Shown in pieces: positions 10,309 to 33,619 of a stretch of 64,000 nt of DNA (the stretch's first letter is position 1; each line of letters opens with the position of its first letter). The DNA comes from Vibrio marisflavi CECT 7928 (GTDB lineage: Bacteria; Pseudomonadota; Gammaproteobacteria; Enterobacterales; Vibrionaceae). The DNA lies in NCBI RefSeq assembly GCF_921294215.1, contig NZ_CAKLDM010000001.1, forward strand, positions 248,001 to 312,000, written 5' to 3'. The notes below the pieces were generated by a model. The model was not told the DNA's origin and did not search any database. It saw only the letters and a program-made list of their open reading frames with translations. A program made the position numbers and the translations under genes.

Positions 10309-11041
10309 AATGCTTCTCCTCACTGTATGGTTTTTCTATAGAACGTATGACCTTAGCTGGGTTGCCAGCCGCTATAACAAACGGGGGCAGATCTCCCGTG
10401 ACGACACTTCCAGCTGCGACAATGGTTCCCTCACCGATAGTGACTCCATGCTTAACACTGACGTTGGTACATAGCCAAACATCTCGGCGCAATACAATGT
10501 TACCGACTTGCCACTCATCGTCCGGCTCCCCTAGGGCTCTTCGATTCGCATCAAGTGGGTGACCTGAGTAGCCAAATAGAAAAGCTCTTCCCGCGATTCG
10601 TACATTGTCTTCAATAATGACTTTTTGGCCGACCGCAATGGTTGTTTGCCAGCCGATGTCGACATTAGATCCAATAGAGAGGGACGGGGGAGTGGAATGA
10701 GTTCTACCACTTAACGTTGTTTGGCCAGAGATACGACAGTTATCACCAACAGTGATTCTTAGTGGTCCTGAAACATAGGGTAAACCTCCGTATAGAAAAA
10801 GGTGTTTCCCATAATGAGAAAGGCGACCTTTAAATGCTGGGGTATATAAAGCTATTCTGGCCGTAGTATTGATTAAGTTTGATATAAATTTATATAAAAA
10901 ATAGAAGCTTATGTTCACAACCTGTGGTGTGGGAATTTCCAAACTGCGAGTCTTTTTCAGAATGAGAAATACATTGCGATAAAACTTGTTTGGGTGGTTT
11001 TTTAGCCAAAATTTTAAGTCGTTGATATATCCTGCCAGCAT
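10301..11041 (-). CDS. sypM: SypM hexapeptide acyltransferase
   Basis: 246 residues. The C-terminal half carries left-handed beta-helix hexapeptide repeats (VGDNCRISGQT, IGSNVDIGWQT, IEDNVRIAGRA, IGEGTIVAAGSVV), the signature of acetyl or other acyl transferases that decorate sugars. Two-thirds of the way along, the GYSGHPLDANRR block resembles the WcaF/MaoA catalytic region. First gene of a sypMNO unit; the upstream gap has a sigma-54-like site and a SypG-type enhancer that overlaps the sypL stop. Confidence 0.87.
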   Translation of the reverse strand: MLAGYINDLKFWLKNHPNKFYRNVFLILKKTRSLEIPTPQVVNISFYFLYKFISNLINTTARIALYTPAFKGRLSHYGKHLFLYGGLPYVSGPLRITVGDNCRISGQTTLSGRTHSTPPSLSIGSNVDIGWQTTIAVGQKVIIEDNVRIAGRAFLFGYSGHPLDANRRALGEPDDEWQVGNIVLRRDVWLCTNVSVKHGVTIGEGTIVAAGSVVTGDLPPFVIAAGNPAKVIRSIEKPYSEEKHYA

Positions 11042-16501: not shown

Positions 16502-17575
16502 TCATATTTGAGAGGTATTTTGAGTAAGTGGAGATGTACCGTAATACTGAATCAATTGCCGTACCGCAGCCTGTCTAGAATAGGACAGCTCTATGGTCCG
16601 CTGAGCATTTTCTCTAAGTGTTACTTTCTGCTCCATTGGGAGTTTTAGGCATTCCCACAATAGTTTCGGAAGCTGTTCGTCATTGTCCGCAATGAAGCCA
16701 TTGAACTTGTTTTTGATCAGCAGGTTCAAATCGCCAACGTCGAGAGAAACAACCATTACCCCGCGAGCCATGGCTTCAAGAGCTGTCATGGGTAACCCCT
16801 CAAAACGCGAACAAATAATTAATATGCCAATGTTTTCCCAAACCTTATTCATATTTTTTTGGTGGCCATGAAAGTAAATATTGCTCGAAGAGTGCTCCAT
16901 AAGTTGCTTTAGTTGCTGCTCCATGGGCCCAGTACCATAGATATGGAAGTTCTCTAGTGGGAATGATCTAGCGAGATCGATAAATCGATCAGGCGCCTTT
17001 TCTTCACTCAATCGTCCGACAAAAGCGATTTGCTTTCCACTGCTTAAGGGGGCGTTATCAAAAGAAACGAAGTTGTTTATGTGTATTGAACTAAAGGGAA
17101 GCTTGGCCTGAATTTTTCGACTGACAGCGAGACTGACATTAGACATAAAGGTTGTATATCTATCTAAGGCGTCATAGAGCTTAACGCGCCCTTTTGGTGT
17201 TTCTCCTGCGTGATAGGTAGAAATTTGTTTGATTTGCAGGGAAGGTAATAACCATTTAACTATTTTGCTAACAATACTTGCCTTGTATCCATGAGCATGC
17301 AGAACGGAGGGTTTGTATGTCTTTGCTGCTTTTTTTAGTGCCGCCAATGTGCTCAGTTTTGGGTATAGGTCATTGAGCGTTTCAAACGGGATAAGAGCAA
17401 GCTTTAGCTTTTCTAAGATCAGCTGAGTATCACTGTAACGTTTTAAAAGAATGACTCTGACAGGAATATTGTTTTCTCTAAGCCCTTTTGCGAGTTCTAA
17501 GGTATGAGTTTCGATACCCCCATACCTCAGACTATCGATGACAAGCCAGATTTCATTAGGCTGGATCTCTTTCAT
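16502..17575 (-). CDS. sypH: SypH glycosyltransferase (GT4)
   Basis: 357 residues. N-terminal DSLRYGGIETHTLELAKGL motif, donor-domain VGRLSEEKAPDRF and FEGLPMTALEAMARG (E-x7-E). The ATG overlaps the end of sypG by 20 bases and uses a GGGAG Shine-Dalgarno inside sypG, so its translation is coupled to the regulator. Probably the last gene of the sypA-H transcript. Confidence 0.88.
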   Translation of the reverse strand: MKEIQPNEIWLVIDSLRYGGIETHTLELAKGLRENNIPVRVILLKRYSDTQLILEKLKLALIPFETLNDLYPKLSTLAALKKAAKTYKPSVLHAHGYKASIVSKIVKWLLPSLQIKQISTYHAGETPKGRVKLYDALDRYTTFMSNVSLAVSRKIQAKLPFSSIHINNFVSFDNAPLSSGKQIAFVGRLSEEKAPDRFIDLARSFPLENFHIYGTGPMEQQLKQLMEHSSSNIYFHGHQKNMNKVWENIGILIICSRFEGLPMTALEAMARGVMVVSLDVGDLNLLIKNKFNGFIADNDEQLPKLLWECLKLPMEQKVTLRENAQRTIELSYSRQAAVRQLIQYYGTSPLTQNTSQI

Positions 17576-19025
17576 CTTCAGACTCCCAAGCTTGTTTTTT
17601 ACGATATACAGTCGAAGGGCTTAACTCGAGTAAAACTGCGGCGTTAAGGACGTTGCCATCACAAAAGTCTATCGCGTTTTGAATGGTCTCTCGCTCTATT
17701 TGCCACATTGGCCTAATAGGGGCTTTAGCTCCGGAACTATGGCTCGGTATACTCGTCGTTTCTTCGGATAGTTCAACTGGTGTGATGATTGTTTCTTGTT
17801 GAACAATGTGCTCAACCGCTGGTTTTGGCTTAACAACAGGTGAGGAGGGTTTCTTTCCAGAGGTAATCTGTGCAGGGAGGTGTTCAATTGACATCTTTGT
17901 TGCGTCGTTTAGCACTACAATATTTCGAATGATATTTTGGAGTTGTCTTACGTTTCCTGGCCATTGGTATTTTTTTAGTACGCTTTCTACATCTTTGTTA
18001 ATACCAGCAAATTTCTTACGATCTTCTTTGGCATATTGTTTTAGAAAATGCAGTGCTAATGTCGCAATATCGTTGCCCCTTTCACGAAGAGGTGGCATAT
18101 CAATGGGGATAACGTGAACACGGTAATAGAGATCTTCTCTAAATCGACCCTCTTCGACTTCAACCAGTGGATCTCTGTTGGTTGCGCAGATTATGCGAGC
18201 ATCTACTTTTAACTCCTTGCTGCCACCAAGAGGGGTAAAGGTGCCAGTTTGCAAAAATCGTAATAGCTTTTTCTGCATATCTAGGTCCATTTCACATAGC
18301 TCATCGAGAAATAGCGTTCCTCCATCTGCTAATGACGCCGCCCCTTTTCTGTCAGTTGTGGCGCCAGTGAATGCTCCTTTTATGTGGCCAAAAATTTCAC
18401 TCTCCATGAGATCTTTGGGTATCGCACCGCAATTGATTGCTATAAATGGTTTGTCTTTACGCTGGCTTTCTTTGTGGATAGCTTCAGCACAGACCTCTTT
18501 ACCTGTACCACTCTCCCCAACAATGAAGACACTCGCGTTAGTGGGGGCGACAGAGTCAATGACCTTATATACAGACTGCATAGGAAGGCTAGAGCCGATG
18601 AAACCATGAAACCGTGGCCTATCAATCTTGCTCTCAATATCTTCAACTAAGCTTTCTAATTTTGCTTGCTTAAGGTGTAATGCAATGGATGTTTTCAGAC
18701 GATCGGCTTTGATTGGTTTTTCGAGGAAGTCTTTTGCACCTTTTTGCAACAAGTTAACCGCAACATCAACGGAACCATGCGCAGTGGCAATAATGACAGA
18801 AGTAGGGATGTCATTGTCAACAATCCAGTCGAGAATATCCTCTCCAGACATATCAGGTAGTTTTAAATCGAGAATAACGAGTTGCGGCACGTTTCGCTCA
18901 ATAAAACTGATCGCCTCTTTGCCAGTTTCGACATGAAATAGGTCATATGGTTCATCTTTTACGTATTGTTTGTATAAGATGGAGAGTGATGTTGAGTCTT
19001 CAACTAGCAATACTTTTGAGGGCAT
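17556..19025 (-). CDS. sypG: SypG sigma-54-dependent response regulator
   Basis: 489 residues. Receiver with Asp53 (LDLKLPDMSG), AAA+ domain with Walker A GESGTGKE, GAFTGA sigma-54 contact loop and R-finger region, and a C-terminal Fis-type HTH (NAAVLLELSPSTVYRKKQ). It should be phosphorylated by SypF and activate the sigma-54 syp promoters by binding the TTCTCA-N3-TG elements found here upstream of sypA, sypI, sypM, sypP and the LruC gene. An intact GAFTGA and all receiver acidic residues indicate a functional activator. Confidence 0.94.
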   Translation of the reverse strand: MPSKVLLVEDSTSLSILYKQYVKDEPYDLFHVETGKEAISFIERNVPQLVILDLKLPDMSGEDILDWIVDNDIPTSVIIATAHGSVDVAVNLLQKGAKDFLEKPIKADRLKTSIALHLKQAKLESLVEDIESKIDRPRFHGFIGSSLPMQSVYKVIDSVAPTNASVFIVGESGTGKEVCAEAIHKESQRKDKPFIAINCGAIPKDLMESEIFGHIKGAFTGATTDRKGAASLADGGTLFLDELCEMDLDMQKKLLRFLQTGTFTPLGGSKELKVDARIICATNRDPLVEVEEGRFREDLYYRVHVIPIDMPPLRERGNDIATLALHFLKQYAKEDRKKFAGINKDVESVLKKYQWPGNVRQLQNIIRNIVVLNDATKMSIEHLPAQITSGKKPSSPVVKPKPAVEHIVQQETIITPVELSEETTSIPSHSSGAKAPIRPMWQIERETIQNAIDFCDGNVLNAAVLLELSPSTVYRKKQAWESEDERDPA

Positions 19026-19095: not shown

Positions 19096-21408
19096 TTATT
19101 CAGTAGATCGAGTATAGGCTTCAAATCCTAGCTCTTTTCTTTCTAATAAAGCTTTGATTGAGTTGTCAGCCAGCTCTAGTAGTTCTGGGACAAGCTCAAA
19201 TGCTTGTTGTTCATCTTTTTCAATGCAGTACGTCTCAATTTTTCTAGCTAAATTAGATAGTTGTCGATTACCTAGTGCAAGTGCAGTACTGCCTAGCGTG
19301 TGAGATTCAAATTCCACAGCTTCAGCATCCTTTTTGAATGCGGCTTCGCGAATCTTAACTAGCCGGCTTTTCGACTCAAGGACATATTGATCAATGATTT
19401 CGGGCATCACTTCGACACACGTGTCTTCAATGGTCTGCTTTAGAATGGCTTCATCAACTAGGTCAATATCGAAGGCTACTTGATTCATATCGTCGCTCTC
19501 AGGGTTAGAGGTTGTCGTCGTTTCTTTGTGTTCCGGATTGTCTTGACTCTGATCGACTTGTAGATCAGAGTGCGTTTTACCTATGCATAGGCTAATTTTA
19601 TTAATAACGTGGTTGAGTCTGACAGGTTTTGATAGGTAGTCAGTCATTCCTGCGGCTAAAAACTTCTCCCTGTCTCCAGTTAATGCATGTGCTGTGAGGG
19701 CAATAATAGGAATATCAGCCTTTTCCGTTTGCTGAACTTGACGAATTTTCTCGCACGCTTGCATACCATCCATGCCCGGCATAGAAATATCCATAAATAC
19801 TAGGTCGTATTGGTTCTCTAACACTTTCTCAACAGCCTGCATTCCATTTTCAGCAATATCGATTTCAATCCCAATGTTTCGCAGCATATTTTGAATAACT
19901 AGTTGATTCGCTTTGTTATCCTCAGCTACCAATATTTTAGATTGGCTCAAATCTTGGTTAATTGCCAAGTTTTTATATTCTTTTGTGTGCTCTGCGTTGT
20001 CCGCTATTTCAAGATTAATGGTAAAGGTAAATGTGCTACCTACTTCGCTTTTACTTACTAATCGAATTTCGCCATCCATGAGTTCACACAATCTTCTGCA
20101 TATTGCTAGGCCTAGTCCAGACCCTTCTTGGGTTCGAGAATAGGTTTGGTTGACCATGGTGAATTCGTCAAAAATATAAGATAGTTCTTCTTCCTTAATC
20201 CCAATCCCAGTATCTATTACGCTACAAATGATTTGAGCTCGTTGGTTTTCTTCGCTTTTGCTATCGACAACAACGGTGATACTGCCTTGCTGCGTGAATT
20301 TGATAGAGTTACCAATCAGGTTGTGCAGTATTTGTTTTACTCGATTGACGTCACCTTTTAATAGAGTGGGGACGTCTTTGGAAATTTTGCAATGCAGGAC
20401 TAAGTTTTTCCTTTTAGCAGCAGGTACATAGGTATCCACGACATTGTTAATGCACCTATGTAGCTCGAAAGGCTGGTGTTCCAGTAACAACGTATTCGAC
20501 TCCATTCTAGTGAAGTCCAGAATATCGTTTATAACCGACAATAAGAAATGCCCTGATTCTGTTGCAGTATCAATCAACTTTGCTTGTGCTGAATCGAGTT
20601 TGGTTTCTCTGAGCAAAGATAGAATACCAAGCACACCATTCATTGGAGTGCGAATTTCATGCGACATAGAAGCCAAAAATCTACCTTTTGATTCGCAGGC
20701 ATTTTCAGCTTCAGATCTAGCATTTTCTAAGTCGTCATAACTGAACTTTAGTTTGTAAGACATCTCATTAAATGCTTTGGCTAAGCTGCCAAACTCATCA
20801 TTAGAGATTTTATTGATTTGGTAACCTGGACCTTGGGAGGTAAGCGTTTTTGTTGCTTTTGTTAATCGGACAAGGTTCTTTGATAAATAAGTCCCTAATA
20901 TAAAAGAAAATATTGCAACAAGAATAACTTCTACAGAGGCAATGGCAATTATTGAGGTTTTCGCATTGTCCAACATCATTGTAATCGCTGACGTTTCGAA
21001 GCCCATATCGATGAAGCCGTATTTTATTCCACCATTTTCTATAGCAATTCGTGTATCAAATATATTATCGGTAATTGAGCTTAAGCTGTGGTCTACTTGC
21101 ATTGGCCTTGAAAGGAGTGCCTCGTTGCCACTTTGTGCAAGGACATTGTTATTCTCCACAACTTTTACATATCTGACGCCTTCAATGTTCATAAAATCTT
21201 TGACTAGAGCATCAATGGTCGCGATATCCTGAGACAGTACGGCATTTTTTATCGCATGAGAAAACATAGTTGCTGTAGAAGTCGCACTTTGTATCATCAG
21301 CTTTTCATTCGATTTGGAAAGAAAAGACATAGAGCTAAATACGAGAAACATTAGTAAGGAGATCTCGATAACGGCAATACCCAAAATAGTCTTAGTTCTG
21401 AACTTCAT
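19096..21408 (-). CDS. sypF: SypF hybrid sensor kinase with HPt domain
   Basis: 770 residues from ATG 21408 (AGGA 8 bases upstream). Membrane helix 1 (about 8-30), periplasmic sensor (31-150), helix 2 (about 152-174), HAMP (175-225), HisKA His250 (SMSHEIRTPMNG), HATPase (GNSIKFTQQG), receiver Asp540 (FMDISMPGMDG) and C-terminal HPt with His703 (ESHTLGSTALALG). The full phosphorelay His-Asp-His is present. In V. fischeri the SypF HPt domain is the hub that passes phosphate to SypG from several kinases. The sensor module is strikingly like that of the kinase at 29457-31079. It begins 76 bases after sypD, where sypE would be expected. Confidence 0.93.
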   Translation of the reverse strand: MKFRTKTILGIAVIEISLLMFLVFSSMSFLSKSNEKLMIQSATSTATMFSHAIKNAVLSQDIATIDALVKDFMNIEGVRYVKVVENNNVLAQSGNEALLSRPMQVDHSLSSITDNIFDTRIAIENGGIKYGFIDMGFETSAITMMLDNAKTSIIAIASVEVILVAIFSFILGTYLSKNLVRLTKATKTLTSQGPGYQINKISNDEFGSLAKAFNEMSYKLKFSYDDLENARSEAENACESKGRFLASMSHEIRTPMNGVLGILSLLRETKLDSAQAKLIDTATESGHFLLSVINDILDFTRMESNTLLLEHQPFELHRCINNVVDTYVPAAKRKNLVLHCKISKDVPTLLKGDVNRVKQILHNLIGNSIKFTQQGSITVVVDSKSEENQRAQIICSVIDTGIGIKEEELSYIFDEFTMVNQTYSRTQEGSGLGLAICRRLCELMDGEIRLVSKSEVGSTFTFTINLEIADNAEHTKEYKNLAINQDLSQSKILVAEDNKANQLVIQNMLRNIGIEIDIAENGMQAVEKVLENQYDLVFMDISMPGMDGMQACEKIRQVQQTEKADIPIIALTAHALTGDREKFLAAGMTDYLSKPVRLNHVINKISLCIGKTHSDLQVDQSQDNPEHKETTTTSNPESDDMNQVAFDIDLVDEAILKQTIEDTCVEVMPEIIDQYVLESKSRLVKIREAAFKKDAEAVEFESHTLGSTALALGNRQLSNLARKIETYCIEKDEQQAFELVPELLELADNSIKALLERKELGFEAYTRSTE

Positions 21409-21484
21409 TACATCTATCCTAACTATCGTTGTTAAATTGAATGTGGCTCTTAGCAAGATTATTGCTTTCGAACTTACAAAGTCA

Positions 21485-25774: not shown

Positions 25775-26275
25775 TTAAAATGTCCAAGAGCTTTCGCTAG
25801 TCGACAGTTCACTTTGTAAAGGATTACTACCATCGTAAAACTGAACTTCTGCCAAAACAGAATTGATTCCACTAGAAACTGAAAACTCTAGCGTTGCAAG
25901 CCCACTTGTTAGAGATGATGCCGCAACCCTGCTATTAAAGTGAGGAGTGTAACTTCCATCAGTTTCCTTTGTATAACTTGTATAAACAGAGATGTAAGCG
26001 TTGTCGGTTGAATACCCACTGACATCGATGTTGTAAATAAGGTTTGAGTTCTGATCGTAGTTAAAGCCATCGGGCACCGTTAGCTCTGACATTGTTCTTG
26101 TCGACACCACGGTAGGAGTCTCAGGAATATCTTCATCAGAGGAATCCGTTACAGTGGGAACTGCATTTGTGTCTGCACTGCTACTGGCACCAGTTCCAGC
26201 CTCACCGTCGCCTTCTCCGCCACCGCAAGCAAAGAGAAAGAAAGAACTTAGAAATATCAATATCATCCGTTTCAT
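25775..26275 (-). CDS. Putative lipoprotein in the LruC operon
   Basis: 166 residues. Lipobox LFACGGG (Cys17) after a short hydrophobic signal, a low-complexity linker rich in G, S, T, E and D, then a compact beta-rich domain (residues 80-166). I do not recognise a family. It lies 3 bases after the LruC-domain gene and so shares the sigma-54-like promoter near 28445; co-transcription and the SypG-type enhancer suggest a surface or matrix role. That role is inference. Confidence 0.75.
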   Translation of the reverse strand: MKRMILIFLSSFFLFACGGGEGDGEAGTGASSSADTNAVPTVTDSSDEDIPETPTVVSTRTMSELTVPDGFNYDQNSNLIYNIDVSGYSTDNAYISVYTSYTKETDGSYTPHFNSRVAASSLTSGLATLEFSVSSGINSVLAEVQFYDGSNPLQSELSTSESSWTF

Positions 26276-26278
26276 TGT

Positions 26279-28402
26279 CTACTCCTCTGGTATGAATATG
26301 TTGCTCTGTACTGCATTCTCATCTAAATACCAATCTTGACTAAACTGTCCGCCGGATTCCGCATAGGTAGCAAACTCTGGGTAGGCAACAACTAAGTCGA
26401 CACGTTCAAGAGGCCACTGCCATTCACTAGGCACCACTAAAGCCCATGGTAAATTTCCAGCTGTTTTAAAGTATTTGTTTTGATTCGGTTCACTAGCATC
26501 AACGCCAAGCCCATATAGGTTTTCATCGTCGAACTTTTCGGTGGGTGCATGATCCGCTAGGTGAATTTCTAATGTTCGTCCCGGATGAAGTGGTAGCCCA
26601 TCCCCATGGTACTGACCTGGTGTTGCAAAAATAAATGGGTCGTAAGGCATAGACATTAGGTTCGAAGTATCTGCGCTTTCAGTGGTGGCTATATCAAGCT
26701 CAAAGGAAAAGTTTATTTCCTCTTGGCACCATTGTACTGAGCGGTAAAAGTTGCATTGTTCTGTTTTATTGGTCGACAAGTCAGTCGAGACAATCAAAAT
26801 TGCACTTGTAGAGTCTTGCTCAAGGCCATTTGATTCTAGCTTCTCACCATTATGGTATTGATAAGTTAGATCACTATTGATGTCTGTTCGATTGATCCCT
26901 GATAGGTGAATAGCAAAGCCACTCGGGTAGCTTGCTCCGTAAGCCGCTAAATATCCTTGAATGACCATTCGTGCAACCCTGCCATCCTTTATGGTCTCAG
27001 TAACACGGTAGCGTACCACGACGTCATTCATATCGTAGTCGGCGGTATAAGGCCAGTTATCCTCGTAAGCGATGGTTGCATAGCCAGATGAACTAGGGTA
27101 GTAGCGAACAGCGGTACCGTCTTTGGTGATAAGTAAAGGGTGATCCTCAACTTCGCCAGAAGTTGAACCACCAAAATATTCTAGGTTACTTTGTTCACTA
27201 AACCTGAAGCGGCTCCAAGTAGATCCTACAACCGCATTATTAGGTACTTCTAATATGAGTGAGTTTCGCCCGGCTGAGAGTACAACATCAGAAAACACCT
27301 TTTCTCCACTATCGGCAAAATCTCCATCTTGGTTCCAGTCTATCCATGCAGAAAGGTATCCTTCTCTAGAAGCCGTGACAGAAACGATGGCGTTCAGGCC
27401 AGCTTCAACAGCTGTAACAAAACCCACGCCGTCTTCATCTTGTAAACCTGCTTTATTGTCATCGAGCGGTGCGAGAAGTCCATCGCCCTCACCATCAGGT
27501 GCAATGGCACCCAACCAGTAGTCAGTGTCTATTGTGTGTCTTGGACCATTTGAATCTAAAGTTGTTTGATAGCTATCCGGAGCATCACCGAAGTCGATGG
27601 TAGAGTCTTCATCAATGATTGGAGCGTTAGCACAGCGAGCGCCATCATTTTGGTTAGAGTATGGTCCAACAGCAAAGAGCTGAACGTCTATAATGCCATT
27701 GGCAATATTGTCTTCATCAGATAGGTCTATTCGATATATATGTCCATCAGAGTTTCTCGATATGTAGTAGTAGCCGTTAACATCAAAATATCCCGCTCCA
27801 AATGTCCCCGTATGGCCCACATCTCCAATATAGCTTTCTGCGCCAGTGGTTAAATCAAATTGATATAGATAACCTGAAGAGTTATCTATACCGTACAGGT
27901 TTCCATTTTGTGGGTGAAATGCAAAGTCAGTCAGCCGAACTGAGGCTTGACTAGAAATTTTCTCCACCACCAAGGTGGCTGAAGGGTTTGAATCTAGTGG
28001 TGACAAGTCGACTTTAAAAAGCCCTCTTCCCTGACGGTAAAGGTAATAGACGTGATTGTAGACGTCACCAACAAAGAAGGTGTGGTCTGTGGGTAAACCA
28101 CTTGTGTTAAGAACCTGAGCTTTAAAGTCTTTACCGAGTCGAACTAACTGTTTATTGGTTGTATCGTACCCGTATATGTAGCGGTCTTCAAAATCAAAGC
28201 CCACGCCGTTTATGTTAGCGTTAATGCCAGTGTCTGACTGTATAAGGGCTGTTGCACCGGTGACAAGATTGACGCCATATACTTGAACAGGGTTTGCCTG
28301 AAATAAGTAAGCTTTACTCGGGCAGGTATCGAATGGAGCCGCATTTGCGTAGCTACTAACGAGTAGCATTGAAAACAACGTTAAAAGTGATTTCCCTGTC
28401 AT
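26279..28402 (-). CDS. Secreted LruC/GEVED-domain protein, candidate biofilm matrix protein
   Basis: 707 residues with a signal peptide (1-21, ANA-AP). N-terminal repeat region (residues 25-255) resembles DUF6923-type beta-propeller modules with YxYDTTN and GIDNSSGYLYQFDLTTG units. Middle GEVED-type domain (residues 270-425: FGDAPDSY, AWIDWNQDGDF, SGEVEDHPLL). C-terminal LruC/DUF4842 domain (YYPSSSGYATIAYEDNWP, YDMNDVVVRYRV). Acidic DxD-rich loops suggest calcium binding. Start follows a GGAGC Shine-Dalgarno. Upstream are a sigma-54-like site and an exact SypG enhancer; expression together with the polysaccharide genes is predicted. Confidence 0.82.
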   Translation of the reverse strand: MTGKSLLTLFSMLLVSSYANAAPFDTCPSKAYLFQANPVQVYGVNLVTGATALIQSDTGINANINGVGFDFEDRYIYGYDTTNKQLVRLGKDFKAQVLNTSGLPTDHTFFVGDVYNHVYYLYRQGRGLFKVDLSPLDSNPSATLVVEKISSQASVRLTDFAFHPQNGNLYGIDNSSGYLYQFDLTTGAESYIGDVGHTGTFGAGYFDVNGYYYISRNSDGHIYRIDLSDEDNIANGIIDVQLFAVGPYSNQNDGARCANAPIIDEDSTIDFGDAPDSYQTTLDSNGPRHTIDTDYWLGAIAPDGEGDGLLAPLDDNKAGLQDEDGVGFVTAVEAGLNAIVSVTASREGYLSAWIDWNQDGDFADSGEKVFSDVVLSAGRNSLILEVPNNAVVGSTWSRFRFSEQSNLEYFGGSTSGEVEDHPLLITKDGTAVRYYPSSSGYATIAYEDNWPYTADYDMNDVVVRYRVTETIKDGRVARMVIQGYLAAYGASYPSGFAIHLSGINRTDINSDLTYQYHNGEKLESNGLEQDSTSAILIVSTDLSTNKTEQCNFYRSVQWCQEEINFSFELDIATTESADTSNLMSMPYDPFIFATPGQYHGDGLPLHPGRTLEIHLADHAPTEKFDDENLYGLGVDASEPNQNKYFKTAGNLPWALVVPSEWQWPLERVDLVVAYPEFATYAESGGQFSQDWYLDENAVQSNIFIPEE

Positions 28403-28437: not shown

Positions 28438-28453
28438 AACAAGGATTGTGCCA
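28438..28453 (-). promoter_or_regulatory. Sigma-54-like promoter of the LruC operon
   Basis: Minus strand TGGCACAATCCTTGTT: perfect -24 TGGCAC; the -12 region is TTGT instead of TTGC. It lies about 40 bases before the LruC ATG. Confidence 0.5.
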
Positions 28454-28503
28454 ATTTTATGTTATTGAAAAATAAGGAATAAAAAATTGATTTTTTGATT
28501 TTA

Positions 28504-28515
28504 TCAATGTGAGAA
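28504..28515 (-). promoter_or_regulatory. SypG-like enhancer upstream of the LruC operon
   Basis: Minus strand TTCTCACATTGA matches TTCTCA-N3-TGA exactly, about 50 bases upstream of the sigma-54-like site. It could also act on the divergent binding-protein gene, but I see no sigma-54 site in that direction. Confidence 0.6.
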
Positions 28516-28626
28516 TCAAATTAAAATTCATTATCTTCGTTTGACTCATCATTGCTGCACCTGAAAATAGAAAATTGTCAGAACTTGTCTAAGCTTAATT
28601 TGAGCTAGGAAAACAAGGTGTTATTA

Positions 28627-29454
28627 ATGAAACGACTGATAATTTTATTTGTAAGTTTGTTCTTTTCTATCACAACTTACGCAGAACAGATTACTTTTGG
28701 TATTGTTCCTCAGCAATCAGCTATTACGCTTGCTAATAACTGGGGGCCGATACTTAAGTATTTGTCAGAACAGACCGGAGAAGAAGTAGTCTTTAGAACA
28801 GCCAAAGATATCCCTGAATTCGAGCGGAGAGTAGCAGCGGGCGAGTATGATATTGCTTATATGAACCCTTATCACTACACGGTTTTCCACCAGAAACCGG
28901 GCTACAACGCAATCGCAAAACAAAAAGATAAAAAGATTCGCGGAATAATCGTGGTTCGCAAAGATTCAACTATTAAAGAATTGTCTGAACTCTCAGGAGA
29001 AAAATTGGCATTTCCTTCGCCCGCAGCATTTGCCGCGAGTGTGATTCCTAGAGCGGTTCTCGAGCAAAAAAGTATCTCATTTGAACCCAAATATGTCTCC
29101 TCTCATGACTCTGTTTATTTGAATGTGAGCAAAGGGTTCTTTGCAGCGGGAGGTGGAATAGAGCGGACACTCAACAATACTTCCGAAAATGTTAAAGACC
29201 AACTCAAAGTACTTTGGCGTACGCCAGCCTATACGCCCCATGCGTTCGCAACCCATCCAGATATGCCTATTGAACAGCAAAAGCGAATTGCAGAAGCCTT
29301 GTTGTCTCTGAATAACACCGAGGGGGGAAGGGAGTTACTTAAAAGAATCAACTTTAAAGGGATAGAAACGGCGTCAAACAGTGAGTGGGATGACGTCCGA
29401 TCTTTAGACATTAAATTGCTGAACCATCTTTTGGCTACTAACAGTACCCAATAA
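28627..29454 (+). CDS. PhnD-like periplasmic binding protein paired with a kinase
   Basis: 275 residues from ATG 28627 (AAGGTG 8 bases upstream). Signal peptide (about 1-19, TYA-EQ) and a PhnD/SsuA-type periplasmic-binding domain (FGIVPQQSA, AYMNPYHYTVF, FPSPAAFAASVIPRA). Members bind phosphate, phosphite or phosphonates for ABC transport, but there is no permease or ATPase here. The gene ends 2 bases before a membrane histidine kinase, the arrangement of sensor/binding-protein pairs such as TorT-TorS or NspS-MbaA. It therefore most likely presents a ligand to the kinase rather than importing it. Confidence 0.85.
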   Translation: MKRLIILFVSLFFSITTYAEQITFGIVPQQSAITLANNWGPILKYLSEQTGEEVVFRTAKDIPEFERRVAAGEYDIAYMNPYHYTVFHQKPGYNAIAKQKDKKIRGIIVVRKDSTIKELSELSGEKLAFPSPAAFAASVIPRAVLEQKSISFEPKYVSSHDSVYLNVSKGFFAAGGGIERTLNNTSENVKDQLKVLWRTPAYTPHAFATHPDMPIEQQKRIAEALLSLNNTEGGRELLKRINFKGIETASNSEWDDVRSLDIKLLNHLLATNSTQ

Positions 29455-29456
29455 AA

Positions 29457-31079
29457 ATGTCGTTACGACTAAAAACAATACTCGGTGTGGCCTTTATAGA
29501 GGCCGTTCTATTAGCGATACTGCTCTCTTTGACACTTAACTACCTTCAAACTACCAACTATGAGGGTATGGACCAACGAGCGACATCTACTGCTCGTTTG
29601 TTCGCTTCCACGGTTAAAAATGCAGTACTTTCTTATGACCTTGCAACAGTCGATTCATTTACCCATGAGCTTTTGAATAACAAAGATATTGTCTATGTTG
29701 TCGTTTTCGGAGAAGGGAAACAATTGCTTGCGTCCGCAGGAAAGGTACCAACAGATTATTCGCCAAATATGTTGGAAGCAGGCTCTGAAGTGGTGCGGGA
29801 TAGTACTTTTGATGTGAGTTCATCTATCGAAGAATCTGGACTGAATTACGGTTCAGTTTGGATAGGCTTTGATATGGATAGGCTGAATCAACAGATTAAA
29901 GCCGCTAAACATTGGAGTACTTTGATTGTGATAGGTGAGATGGTGCTTGTTGCACTGTTTTCCTATGTGTTAGGAGCCTATTTAACTGGAAGGCTGGCGG
30001 AGCTTAAGAGAGCTGCGAATACTGTTGCTAGAGGTGATAGAGATATTGAACTCAATGTAAAAGGGAGTGATGAGCTTGCGACTGTATCGATAGCATTTAA
30101 GAACATGGTAGAGCAGCTGAGCCACTCGGAATCGCTGACGAAAAGCTACCAAGAGCAACTAGAAGAAGCCAATCAATCTCTTGAAGCAAAAGTGGCAAAG
30201 CGTACCAAAGATTTGCTTCTCGCTAATCAAAAGTTAACTGAGACCAACCAAGAGTTGAAAGAAACGCAAGACAAGTTAATTGAATCTGAGAAAATGGCCT
30301 CAATCGGTACAATGGCGGCAGGTGTCGCCCATGAGATAAACAACCCGATGGGGTCTGTAAGCAGCAATATCCAAATGAGTTTGTCTTACCTCTCTCAGTA
30401 TCGCCAATGGCTTGATAAGTCTTTGCCAGCACTGTCTTCTCAACTGTCGGAAGAAGAAAAAAGCGAACTTGTTTCTTGGTATGAAAGCAATCACATGAGT
30501 TATATTGCTGATGATTTTCGTGACAGTCTGAAAGATGCAAGTAAGGGTATTGAAAGGGTAAAAAATATCGTTACTGCTCTGCAAGAGTATTCAAGTCACA
30601 ACTATTTAGTCAAAGAAGAGTTTAGCAAGGTCAATGTATACCAAACTGTAAATGAGTTAGTACGAGAACTCGATATCCCCACTGAAATAAGCATCGAGAT
30701 ACATCCAAATGTTGAACAGCTGACCGCTGTTTTGGGTATACCGCAAGAGATTAAACGCTTGCTGAATGAGATATTAAAGAATGCGATTCAATCGTGTTCC
30801 CGCAATACCAGTGAACCTTCGAAAAGAATTTCAATTGTTGCTAAAGAGAAAGATGCCATATCGGCTTTGCAAGTTATTGACAATGGAGTCGGAATCGCGC
30901 CTCAAATGATAAAGCGTGTATTTGATCCATTTTACACTACATTACCTGTTGGAGATGGGCTAGGAATGGGACTTACCTATTGTTACGACATCATGCAACA
31001 CCATGGTGGAAGAATTACGTTAGCAAACCGAGAGCAAGGCGGTGTTGTCGTTTCGTTAGTGTTTATAAATCAAGTTTAA
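29457..31079 (+). CDS. Membrane sensor histidine kinase with a SypF-like sensor
   Basis: 540 residues. Helix 1 (about 7-30), periplasmic region (31-150), helix 2 (about 153-175), HAMP (176-228), coiled coil (230-278), then HisKA with His292 (GVAHEINNP) and HATPase (ILKNAIQSC, GMGLTYC). No receiver. The first 180 residues align without gaps at the motifs ATSTA (42-46) and KNAVLS (54-59) with SypF, so the two kinases share one input module. The gene begins 2 bases after its binding-protein partner and its 3' end overlaps the convergent response-regulator gene by 4 bases. Confidence 0.9.
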   Translation: MSLRLKTILGVAFIEAVLLAILLSLTLNYLQTTNYEGMDQRATSTARLFASTVKNAVLSYDLATVDSFTHELLNNKDIVYVVVFGEGKQLLASAGKVPTDYSPNMLEAGSEVVRDSTFDVSSSIEESGLNYGSVWIGFDMDRLNQQIKAAKHWSTLIVIGEMVLVALFSYVLGAYLTGRLAELKRAANTVARGDRDIELNVKGSDELATVSIAFKNMVEQLSHSESLTKSYQEQLEEANQSLEAKVAKRTKDLLLANQKLTETNQELKETQDKLIESEKMASIGTMAAGVAHEINNPMGSVSSNIQMSLSYLSQYRQWLDKSLPALSSQLSEEEKSELVSWYESNHMSYIADDFRDSLKDASKGIERVKNIVTALQEYSSHNYLVKEEFSKVNVYQTVNELVRELDIPTEISIEIHPNVEQLTAVLGIPQEIKRLLNEILKNAIQSCSRNTSEPSKRISIVAKEKDAISALQVIDNGVGIAPQMIKRVFDPFYTTLPVGDGLGMGLTYCYDIMQHHGGRITLANREQGGVVVSLVFINQV

Positions 31080-32368
31080 ATAAATACTATCATTGGTTGG
31101 TCATTGTCTTTCTCGATTTGTCTTAATTTCTCTAGCATCTGTCTGCTTATTTCTTGCCCTGCGGTCACCATGATTTTCCCATTTGGCAAATATAGATCCT
31201 GCTTTAACACATCGCCTTCTTTTAATCTATCAAGACCTATGCAAGCGTCAGCTTTAAGCTCTGTTGCTTCATTTTCTACTATATAGCGAAAAGCTTTAAC
31301 TATATTCGGGTCATAGAGTTTACCAGTGTGATCTTTGATGAAGCTCCTCGCACTATCAGGAGTCATGCCGAAGCGATTATCGTTTTTGGAGATAAAAAAC
31401 TCATAGTTTTTTGCCACTCGCAGAATTTTAGAACCGATAGGTATTTCATCACCTGCTAGGTGGTCAGGAAGACCTGTACCATCGTAATTTTCATTTTGGT
31501 GAAGAATAATATCCACTATTGGCTCAAACTGAGCGATCTGACGAATAATTTCGGCACCGAGTTTTGGGTTGTCATCAGGAATTTTGATACCGTCTATTGA
31601 TGAAGTAGTGGGAGCTCTAGTTTGGTCGACCATACCTATTTGATGAACAAGCGCGGCAAGGTATATGTATGCTATCTCTGAATCAGAAAGCTTCAACCGT
31701 TTAGCCACTGCTTTAGATATTTCCGCGATTCGTTCTATGTGTAAGCTCGATTGGCCTGTTGAATGTTGTATGACAGCTTGTAGGGTTAAAAGAATATCTT
31801 TAAATGCTTTTGTACGATGTTTGAACAGTTTTTGTAATTTATTGTTGGTCATTAGTAACTGTTTAGTCCGCAGAGCCACCTTTTCTTCTAGGCTTTCATT
31901 TAAAGCAGATAGCTCCTCATTTTTGCTTTCCAATTCTGCCATTAACAATTGTTTTTCATGCTTGAGTCGAAACACTTCGGCGGCTTTAGATAAAGTCTCC
32001 TTCAGTGCATTGTTATCCCAAGGCTTAGCTATATAGGTGTGAATACCACCTTCATTAACAGCAGAAATGGTTGATTCGATATCACTATATCCAGTGAGCA
32101 AGAACCGAATCGATTCAGGTGCTATAGCCTTGGCTCTAGATAGAAACTCAGCACCATCCATTTCGGGCATTCTCATGTCTGATATGATGAGAGGTACATG
32201 GTTTTTCTGCAAATGCTGCAAAGCCTCTGAGCCTTTGGTAAATGAGCTCACGTCATAGTCATAGCGTAAAACCCTTGTGAGAGAATTAAGAATGTCTTGC
32301 TCGTCATCCAGCAAAAGGACTTTAAGTTTTGGACATTGTTTTTCTTCCACCTTAAACTCTTGACCCAT
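31076..32368 (-). CDS. Response regulator with a degenerate HD-GYP domain
   Basis: 430 residues. Receiver with Asp64 (IISDMRMPEMDG), a coiled coil (residues 125-190) and an HD-GYP-type output domain (200-420). The catalytic motifs are altered: HD is HQ (VHQIGMV), the GYP triplet is GLP (GTGLPDHL) and the distal VAD is VAK. It is thus probably not an active c-di-GMP phosphodiesterase but a binding or protein-interaction output. Co-directional with the soluble kinase just upstream (21-base gap), so likely its partner. AGGAG precedes the ATG. Confidence 0.88.
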   Translation of the reverse strand: MGQEFKVEEKQCPKLKVLLLDDEQDILNSLTRVLRYDYDVSSFTKGSEALQHLQKNHVPLIISDMRMPEMDGAEFLSRAKAIAPESIRFLLTGYSDIESTISAVNEGGIHTYIAKPWDNNALKETLSKAAEVFRLKHEKQLLMAELESKNEELSALNESLEEKVALRTKQLLMTNNKLQKLFKHRTKAFKDILLTLQAVIQHSTGQSSLHIERIAEISKAVAKRLKLSDSEIAYIYLAALVHQIGMVDQTRAPTTSSIDGIKIPDDNPKLGAEIIRQIAQFEPIVDIILHQNENYDGTGLPDHLAGDEIPIGSKILRVAKNYEFFISKNDNRFGMTPDSARSFIKDHTGKLYDPNIVKAFRYIVENEATELKADACIGLDRLKEGDVLKQDLYLPNGKIMVTAGQEISRQMLEKLRQIEKDNDQPMIVFI

Positions 32369-32389: not shown

Positions 32390-33619
32390 TTAAGCGTTTA
32401 AACCATTAATGGGCAATAACACGATAAATTTTGTCCCTTTCCCAAGTTCACTTTCCACTAGGATATCGCCGTTGTGTGATTGAATAATATCCCTTGAAAT
32501 AGAAAGGCCTAACCCCGTTCCTTCACCAACTACTTTTGTGGTAAAGAAAGGCTCATAAATACTAGCAATCTTTTCTGGTGCAATTCCCTTGCCATTGTCA
32601 GAAAAAATAATTTGCACAGTCTCTTCGTCGAATTTGTTTACTGTGATTTCAATCAGGCCATCTTTCTCGATTGCTTGGCTCGCATTTATCAAAATATTCA
32701 TAAAAACTTGGCTGATCTTGGTAGGTTGACACATCACTTTGGGGGTGTCTGGAGAGTAATGTTTGACGATTTTTGTTGTGTACTTTATTTCATTGTTGAT
32801 GATTTTTAGGGTGTTATCTATGCCTGCTGTAATATCAGTAGAGACACGCTTAGCGTCGTCGGTATGAGTAAACTCTTTTAAGTTTTTAATGATGTCGGTG
32901 AGCCTTTCTGCCCCATCGAGCGATTCTTTCATCGTTTCTTTTGCATCAGACAAAATTAACTGAAATTGTGAGCTTTCTAGCTCCTGCGCAAGTTGTTTAT
33001 TAAGTTCTTCGTTACCTAAATCTGTGACTAATCTACGTAAGCTTTCGAACCCCTGTTCTATCGTCTCCAAATAGTCGGACAGTGTTTGGATGTTGGAGGA
33101 TATGAAACCGACAGGATTATTTATCTCATGAGCAATGCCCGTTGAAAGCTGGCCTATTAACGCAAGTTTCTCTGATTGAAAAAGTTGTTTATAGGCCTTA
33201 TCTCGCTCTGATTTCAGCTTCTCAACATATGACTGGTTCGTATTGATAGGGATAAAGGTGAGCTTTAATACTGCAGCACCGTTTGTATTTAGACTTGTCG
33301 GTTCTAGTTTAAGATCTAGTGCATTGCAAATGTATGAATTTAGCAATTTAAACACAGGGTTAAGAATGGGTTTATATTCTTGCCATGTAAAATACTGTTG
33401 GCTTGGAGGGACACCTATATTATCTGAAGCAGAATGACTCGTACTAAATAAGGTTGCTAAAGAGGGAAGCACCACACCTAGTGGTTTATTGAGGACTGCA
33501 TGATTTTCTTGAACGAAAGCATCGGAGAATGCGTTGTTACATTCAACGATTAGAAAGTTGCGTGTCATTGTGCAACTTGGGTTCTCCACTGAGTCGACGG
33601 AAAGTACATTGCCGTTCAT
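32390..33619 (-). CDS. Soluble histidine kinase with PAS-like sensor
   Basis: 409 residues, no membrane segment. N-terminal PAS-like region (about 15-125), coiled coil, HisKA with the AHEINNP signature shared with the kinase at 29457-31079 (QLSTGIAHEINNPVGF), and HATPase (NILINASQAI, GTGLGLSISRDI). GGAGAGC precedes the ATG. It is encoded upstream of, and on the same strand as, the degenerate HD-GYP regulator, which is its likely phosphorylation target. Confidence 0.87.
   Translation of the reverse strand: MNGNVLSVDSVENPSCTMTRNFLIVECNNAFSDAFVQENHAVLNKPLGVVLPSLATLFSTSHSASDNIGVPPSQQYFTWQEYKPILNPVFKLLNSYICNALDLKLEPTSLNTNGAAVLKLTFIPINTNQSYVEKLKSERDKAYKQLFQSEKLALIGQLSTGIAHEINNPVGFISSNIQTLSDYLETIEQGFESLRRLVTDLGNEELNKQLAQELESSQFQLILSDAKETMKESLDGAERLTDIIKNLKEFTHTDDAKRVSTDITAGIDNTLKIINNEIKYTTKIVKHYSPDTPKVMCQPTKISQVFMNILINASQAIEKDGLIEITVNKFDEETVQIIFSDNGKGIAPEKIASIYEPFFTTKVVGEGTGLGLSISRDIIQSHNGDILVESELGKGTKFIVLLPINGLNA

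Follow-up and report, generated by a model that had tools for sequence, protein, structure and literature searches.

Periplasmic binding proteins (SBPs) that work together with a membrane sensor are known from LuxP-LuxQ (AI-2) and TorT-TorS, and LuxP and TorT belong to SBP families other than the PhnD type. In V. cholerae, NspS-MbaA places biofilm control under an SBP, with a GGDEF/EAL output and a polyamine ligand. Taken by its general description, NspS-MbaA would share with the locus considered here the coupling of an SBP to biofilm control in Vibrio. By contrast with LuxP-LuxQ and TorT-TorS, the sensor here appears to be a single PDC-like domain.

Transporter-less SBPs of the PhnD fold that feed kinases are already known, namely AioX and ArrX (excerpts of PMC5908839). 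As in the AioX-AioS-AioR, ArrX and ArxX systems, the SBP gene described here stands beside a sensor kinase gene and not beside a transporter. Loci of the AioX type have arsenic enzyme genes as neighbours, whereas the neighbours of our SBP gene are EPS and c-di-GMP genes. Within Vibrionaceae, a lone ‘PABC’ gene between D and F of the eps/syp clusters was left unexplained in the sections of the report at hand, which describe it in 17 strains of six clades and name V. natriegens (Lebellenger 2018, PMC5801674); to judge by its position and annotation, this gene is the syp-type SBP discussed below. In the open-licence literature we found neither a printed link of the syp SBP to SypF nor an experiment on the SBP-sensor coupling. 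As far as our literature searches go, the tie between the SBP and the SypF sensor and the residue that marks it (A63) are new, as are the repeated loss of the SBP, probably including its loss in the model genus, and the changed ligand pocket.

The locus lies in a stretch of 64,000 nucleotides from Vibrio marisflavi CECT 7928, called the window throughout. We think it very likely that its features are, as a whole, best explained by an SBP and a sensor kinase that form a co-receptor pair, a SypF sensor of the same family and, in the window, a SypF that lacks an SBP of its own.

The binding protein, its pocket and the sensor it precedes

The SBP gene occupies positions 28627 to 29454 of the forward strand (ATG at 28627, with an alternative GTG upstream at 28618) and encodes a protein of 275 amino acids with a hydrophobic leader at its N-terminus. 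A profile search places it in PF12974 (E 9e-68), and its predicted fold is that of PhnD. The kinase gene follows on the same strand at 29457 to 31079, leaving a gap of 2 bases. Its product, 540 amino acids long, is a membrane histidine kinase with TM1, a sensor domain predicted to have a PDC/Cache-like fold, TM2, HAMP, a HisKA-like domain (His292) and HATPase; the HisKA match is weak, and a domain scan of the protein returned no receiver domain.

No transporter genes are found among the immediate neighbours of the SBP gene. Genome-wide, the best match to the PhnE profile (TIGR01097) reached 72.6 bits where the cut-off is 216.7, and none passed. The initial annotation had read the SBP gene as ending 2 bases before the kinase gene and as having no transporter partner, and it had named a transporter partner elsewhere as the observation that would count against it; the open reading frames lie where it placed them, and no PhnE above the cut-off came to light.

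The initial annotation also stated that the first 180 residues of the kinase and of SypF align without gaps. The window's SypF, a hybrid kinase encoded at 19096 to 21408 of the reverse strand (ATG start), does align with the 540-residue kinase from residue 1 in BLASTP (E 1e-40, 26% identity over 545 columns). The alignment of the sensor domains that the annotation called for gives 36% identity (E 1e-30) for the first ~190 residues. The motifs ATSTA (42-46) and KNAVLS (54-59) carry identical numbering in both proteins, as had been claimed, but a gap of one residue falls at about 85-87. This likeness lies far beyond chance and is common to many relatives, and by sequence comparison the two periplasmic modules are homologous.

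What might the SBP bind? The SBPs of transporters, PtxB, HtxB and PhnD, have the same fold; the window's SBP differs from them in that the genome has no PhnE above the cut-off and the pocket is changed. Its sequence matches PtxB at E 3e-15. According to the sections of PMC5700983 available, phosphite is held in Te_PtxB by Y55, Y100, S130, T131, S132 and H160; in our alignment these correspond to I62, I104, A134, F135, A136 and H160 of the window's SBP. Five of the six residues named there are thus replaced and the histidine alone is kept. Each of I62, F135, A136 and H160 is shared by 82 or more of 83 Vibrio SBPs; for I104 and A134 the share is at least 90% in an SBP alignment (A2). The pocket of the arsenic sensors AioX/ArrX gives a similar picture as far as it is set out in the excerpts of PMC5908839: Cys106, Tyr131, Ser161, Ser163 and His192 correspond to N80, I104 or K103, A134, A136 and H160, and again only the histidine is retained. 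This mapping was made through the ArrX row of the alignment, and between the PtxB and ArrX alignments there is a shift of one position (I104/K103). An arsenite ligand of the AioX kind was rejected, as N80 stands in the place of Cys106. The phosphite or phosphonate ligand that the initial annotation had in mind is disfavoured, on the residues listed for PtxB. Because the pocket residues are changed, the ligand is probably neither a phosphorus nor an arsenic oxyanion.

It could be argued that the SBP is a stray component of a phosphonate or phosphate transporter, or is tied to phosphonate bound to EPS. It does belong to a Pfam family of the PhnD type, and the part of PMC5801674 at hand discusses a phosphonate link for the syp copy. 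We regard this as highly improbable given the absence of any PhnE above the cut-off in the genome, the kinase partner at nearly all SBP places and the replacement of five of the six oxyanion ligands given for PtxB. The default phosphonate annotation of this SBP should be treated with caution.

Neighbourhood and co-inheritance across Vibrio

A Vibrio sample, 118 genomes in a first draw and then 227, was searched for the SBP family at E<=1e-60, and all 84 places found, in 81 of the 227 genomes, were inspected with their neighbourhoods. Each of them is directly followed, on the same strand, by a gene with the sensor module (84/84; 48/48 plus the other 36). The partner is SypF at 44 places, a kinase of the 540-residue type at 27, and another hybrid kinase at 13; five of these 13 were domain-scanned, four of which have PAS and one of those four also Hpt. 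The outputs behind the sensor therefore vary, from a short kinase through SypF to hybrids with PAS or Hpt, and the pair of SBP and sensor stays constant. Outside Vibrio, the sensor follows the SBP at 19 of 20 loci inspected in other Vibrionaceae genera (20 of 30 matches) and at 78 of 79 loci with intact frames on named contigs (the best 80 of 573 matches), a set that includes Marinomonas, Pseudoalteromonas, SAR324 and Desulfosediminicola, with 15 of the 79 loci coming from Vibrio itself. Only L200 and L215, both in the sets outside the 227 genomes, break the rule and have no adjoining sensor. Since the sensor follows at nearly all places, the SBP tracks the sensor and not the syp genes. Such conserved pairing of an SBP gene with one sensor module is what is expected of SBP-coupled sensor kinases and, together with the absence of PhnE above the cut-off, it upholds the earlier view of the SBP as a transporter-less partner of a sensor.

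Among side observations, a frameshift affects one of the 84 SBPs: at L144 (G162) the syp SBP is split into frames of 180 and 84 amino acids next to a SypF that is intact and retains A63, a probable recent loss. Upstream of the SBP-kinase pair at L232 (V. nereis) there is a further sensor kinase, of 720 amino acids and with weak similarity. Two loci of another Vibrionaceae genus (L192 and L197) combine a syp cluster and SBP with a SypE-like gene that bears a receiver, and their SypF is longer (~1030 amino acids).

The initial annotation had proposed that its idea would fall if the pair did not co-occur with syp. In the strict sense the pair does not: only one of 27 kinase-type pairs, that of the window, lies beside syp, in fetched stretches of ~15-24 kb on each side for 15 kinase-type relatives and of 4-9 kb for 11, and no second such pair was seen within those stretches. 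The SBP family does co-occur with syp, at 44 places, where its gene is part of the syp operon, with sypD on one side and sypF on the other.

The two halves of the pair have been inherited together. Distances between SBPs correlate with distances between sensors at r 0.83 over 83 pairs, and none of 999 permutations was as high. For the 43 syp pairs, the partial correlation of SBP and sensor given the kinase core is 0.42, compared with 0.23 for SBP and core given the sensor. Adjacency might then mean only that an old gene pair has been passed down vertically, with no functional coupling, and much of the correlation is indeed shared descent, as sensor and core correlate at r 0.83 within the syp pairs. 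Yet the pair stays intact across differing outputs and distant bacteria, and residue A63 changes only where the SBP gene is not adjacent; we therefore consider inheritance alone improbable as an explanation and retain the co-receptor reading.

Full-length SypF (E<=1e-100, with the top four candidates scored per genome) is present in 56 of the 227 Vibrio genomes. Directly before sypF there is an intact SBP gene in 43 of these, a broken one in one and none in 12; with an SBP gene in this position in 44 of 56 genomes, the placing of the SypF module within the SBP-linked sensor family is supported. The 12 genomes without an adjacent SBP gene comprise nine, the window's included, with a kinase-type pair elsewhere, and three (G067, G088 and G090) that lack a strong SBP altogether. 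SypF persists in these three, and therefore the sensor can exist without the SBP. Ignoring descent, any SBP elsewhere was found in 9 of 12 genomes lacking the adjacent gene versus 3 of 44 with it (Fisher 5e-6). For kinase-type pairs alone the figures are 9 of 12 versus 2 of 44 (G069 and G138), and 16 of 171 for Vibrio genomes without full SypF.

Clusters that have lost SypF are also informative. The first draw contained 48 genomes with SypG and no full SypF, a few of which have only 53-55% matches. None of the 37 clusters inspected from these 48 has an SBP gene between sypD and sypG, and thus the SBP within syp accompanies the SypF sensor. In 29 of the 37 all that is left of SypF is a stand-alone Hpt frame of ~118-160 amino acids (L103-L115, L117-L119, L121, L124, L126, L127, L129 and L131-L138); in the other eight nothing recognisable as a SypF remnant was seen among frames of at least 100 amino acids. 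As a separate observation, genes of ~330, ~299 and ~410 amino acids are inserted in the sypD-sypG region at L080, L083, L103, L104, L117, L124, L136 and L138, at the first two after full SypF and before a second Hpt. They are probably the ProVWX-like insert described in the part of PMC5801674 at hand.

Residue A63 and the SypF of the window

Alanine 63 of the kinase (codon at 29643 to 29645, forward strand) lies in the turn K-[DN]-A-V-L-x-x-D-x-A, which is predicted to be an outer turn of the module. It was chosen after the first draw. All 83 intact SBP-linked Vibrio sensors have alanine here, as do 19 of 19 linked sensors of other Vibrionaceae and 79 of 79 sensors on named contigs, the last set overlapping the others and including one upstream second sensor. 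Where SypF has no adjacent SBP, alanine is found in only 4 of 20, these being 4 of 12 in Vibrio and 0 of 8 in another genus. The four are the window, G003, G093 and G105, the last three of which lack the otherwise conserved K54 in SypF; the remaining eight Vibrio proteins have S, S, V, S, S, Q, Q and Q.

The other genus, previously unused, was added later as 14 genomes, eight of them with SypF, and is probably Aliivibrio. A receiver-bearing gene precedes sypF at all eight loci, A63 is lost in all eight proteins (D, D, D, T, P, Q, T, K) with the surrounding turn scrambled, and no SBP was found at 1e-60 in the 14 genomes. Weak SBP relatives do occur in two of them, G252 and G271 (37% identity, ~1e-55), and that of G252 (L285 neighbourhood, G252:C1:280665-281450) is ~6 kb from a sypF without A63.

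On raw Vibrio rows the association of A63 with adjacency has a Fisher value of 4e-9, which is inflated by relatedness. In a SypF tree of 56 Vibrio and two outgroup rows, with the broken SBP counted as adjacent, adjacency changed at least six times (four forced by supported branches) and A63 four times, and all four changes of A63 fell within lineages without an adjacent SBP. The independent supported tree pairs number four, too few for p 0.05. A63 was kept in two of four lineages with an SBP elsewhere and in none of three without a strong SBP. Our prediction, made before the larger draw, that A63 is kept wherever a genome has any SBP is contradicted by G118, G177, G171, G172 and G173. The first seven non-adjacent SypF proteins score 167-192 bits against the sensor profile, inside the linked range of 143-212, so that the sensor domain as a whole shows no decay without an adjacent SBP.

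Because of the strict pairing, the SBP in the syp operon and the A63 pattern, SypF most likely descends from SBP-coupled receptors and has lost the coupling repeatedly. In the window there is no SBP gene before sypF; the sypD-sypF junction (21409 to 21484), in which 43 Vibrio relatives have an intact SBP gene, measures just 76 bases. The window's SypF nevertheless has the same sensor module with A63 kept, and an SBP gene lies 7 kb away. At position 41 it has S, compared with R or K in the other 11 non-adjacent Vibrio SypF proteins and in all 70 linked sensors of the syp and kinase types. Twelve sites separate syp-type from kinase-type SBPs, two of which fall in a C-terminal tail missing from most SBPs of the syp type, and the window's SBP has the kinase-type residue at all 12; adaptation to SypF is nowhere apparent at these sites. 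Forty sites form a common SBP core, each identical in 82 or more of 83 SBPs, which suggests that both types bind one ligand or a related set.

These facts can be read in two ways. There is about an even chance that the SBP serves the adjacent 540-residue kinase only, and that the window's SypF is orphaned, fed at its Hpt by other kinases, with an A63 that has not yet drifted. This would accord with the purely kinase-type SBP, with the serine at position 41, with the loss of A63 in SypF of five genomes that have a kinase-type pair elsewhere, and with the Hpt alone left of SypF in 29 of 37 clusters inspected. It sits less well with the retention of A63 in the window, on an end branch of 0.8, as well as in G003, G093 and G105, and with the excess of kinase-type pairs in genomes whose SypF has no adjacent SBP, descent being ignored in that comparison. 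Alternatively, and more tentatively, the SBP may be shared, so that one ligand signal would enter both a c-di-GMP branch (kinase to HD-GYP) and a syp branch (SypF to SypG). The common sensor family and the common SBP core would allow for such sharing, and the kept A63, the physical nearness of the SBP gene and the enrichment of 9 in 12 are consistent with it; the SBP's lack of SypF-type residues and the loss of A63 in two of four lineages with the same opportunity speak against it.

A model for the pair, its outputs and the syp regulon

We propose that the SBP is a periplasmic co-receptor and not part of a transporter, and that it binds a small ligand, which is probably not a phosphorus oxyanion. 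The SBP would dock on the 540-residue kinase at the outer turn of its PDC/Cache-like sensor, and the docked SBP would set the kinase or phosphatase state, with the ligand presumably doing the switching. The SypF sensor belongs to the same SBP-coupled family, with the gene for its co-receptor directly before sypF in most Vibrio genomes that have full-length SypF. In the window, where that copy is absent and A63 is kept, SypF may be served by the neighbouring SBP or may do without it. A bolder version, which we think rather unlikely, holds that SypF, the kinase at the centre of Vibrio symbiosis and EPS biofilms, is SBP-gated by descent, that the model genus lost both the co-receptor and the docking turn, and that the window's SBP gates SypF together with the c-di-GMP branch. 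If it is true, the lost co-receptor in the model genus would help to explain why the signal for SypF stays unfound there.

Our model makes the lone binding-protein gene of the syp operon a testable co-receptor and offers in A63 a single-residue marker that tracks the SBP. Species with a retained co-receptor would be a better place to look for the signal for SypF than the model squid symbiont.

The 540-residue kinase most likely acts on the product of the convergent gene at 31076 to 32368 (reverse strand), a target suggested by its neighbourhood. This is a REC-HD-GYP response regulator of the NosR family (NF053512, 432 bits, cut-off 400). Of the 27 kinase-type loci, counting the window's, 23 have this regulator with an identity of at least 39%, and a twenty-fourth (G163) has it at 30%. 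The HD dyad of a catalytic HD-GYP phosphodiesterase is not intact; it reads H-Q in the window and is replaced by H-E, H-Q or H-K in 23 of 23 aligned relatives. Since the dyad is non-canonical in all 24, the regulator may bind c-di-GMP rather than cut it. A soluble histidine kinase gene of the same group follows at 32390 to 33619 (reverse strand), and similar genes stand beside most kinase-type pairs. The expected output of SypF is SypG, a sigma-54 activator encoded at 17556 to 19025 (reverse strand), with relatives of ~66-81% identity in syp clusters.

Divergent from the SBP-kinase pair lies a gene for a LruC-domain protein (26279 to 28402, reverse strand; TIGR04456, E 2e-81), a possible SypG target. 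A sigma-54-like element with one mismatch, at 28438 to 28453 (reverse strand), is aimed at this gene, and none aimed at the SBP gene was seen in the interval between the two. The consensus used was the generally known one, and the scan of the window gave 46 matches at up to two mismatches against 38 expected, which alone is not significant. The function of SypG and its binding motif are described in PMC10162802, and with the motif as given in the excerpts at hand the window has five exact matches against 0.88 expected, a number that none of 100 shuffles reached. Those at 10955, 16474/16475 and 25598 are in the syp cluster; another, at 28502 to 28515 (reverse strand), lies between the SBP and LruC genes. 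Because of this exact SypG motif and the sigma-54-like element, the LruC-domain gene may belong to the syp regulon. With it, upstream of sypA, is a gene for a small lipoprotein-like protein (25775-26275, reverse strand), and this region (26279-28402 and 25775-26275) possibly encodes matrix protein of the syp regulon.
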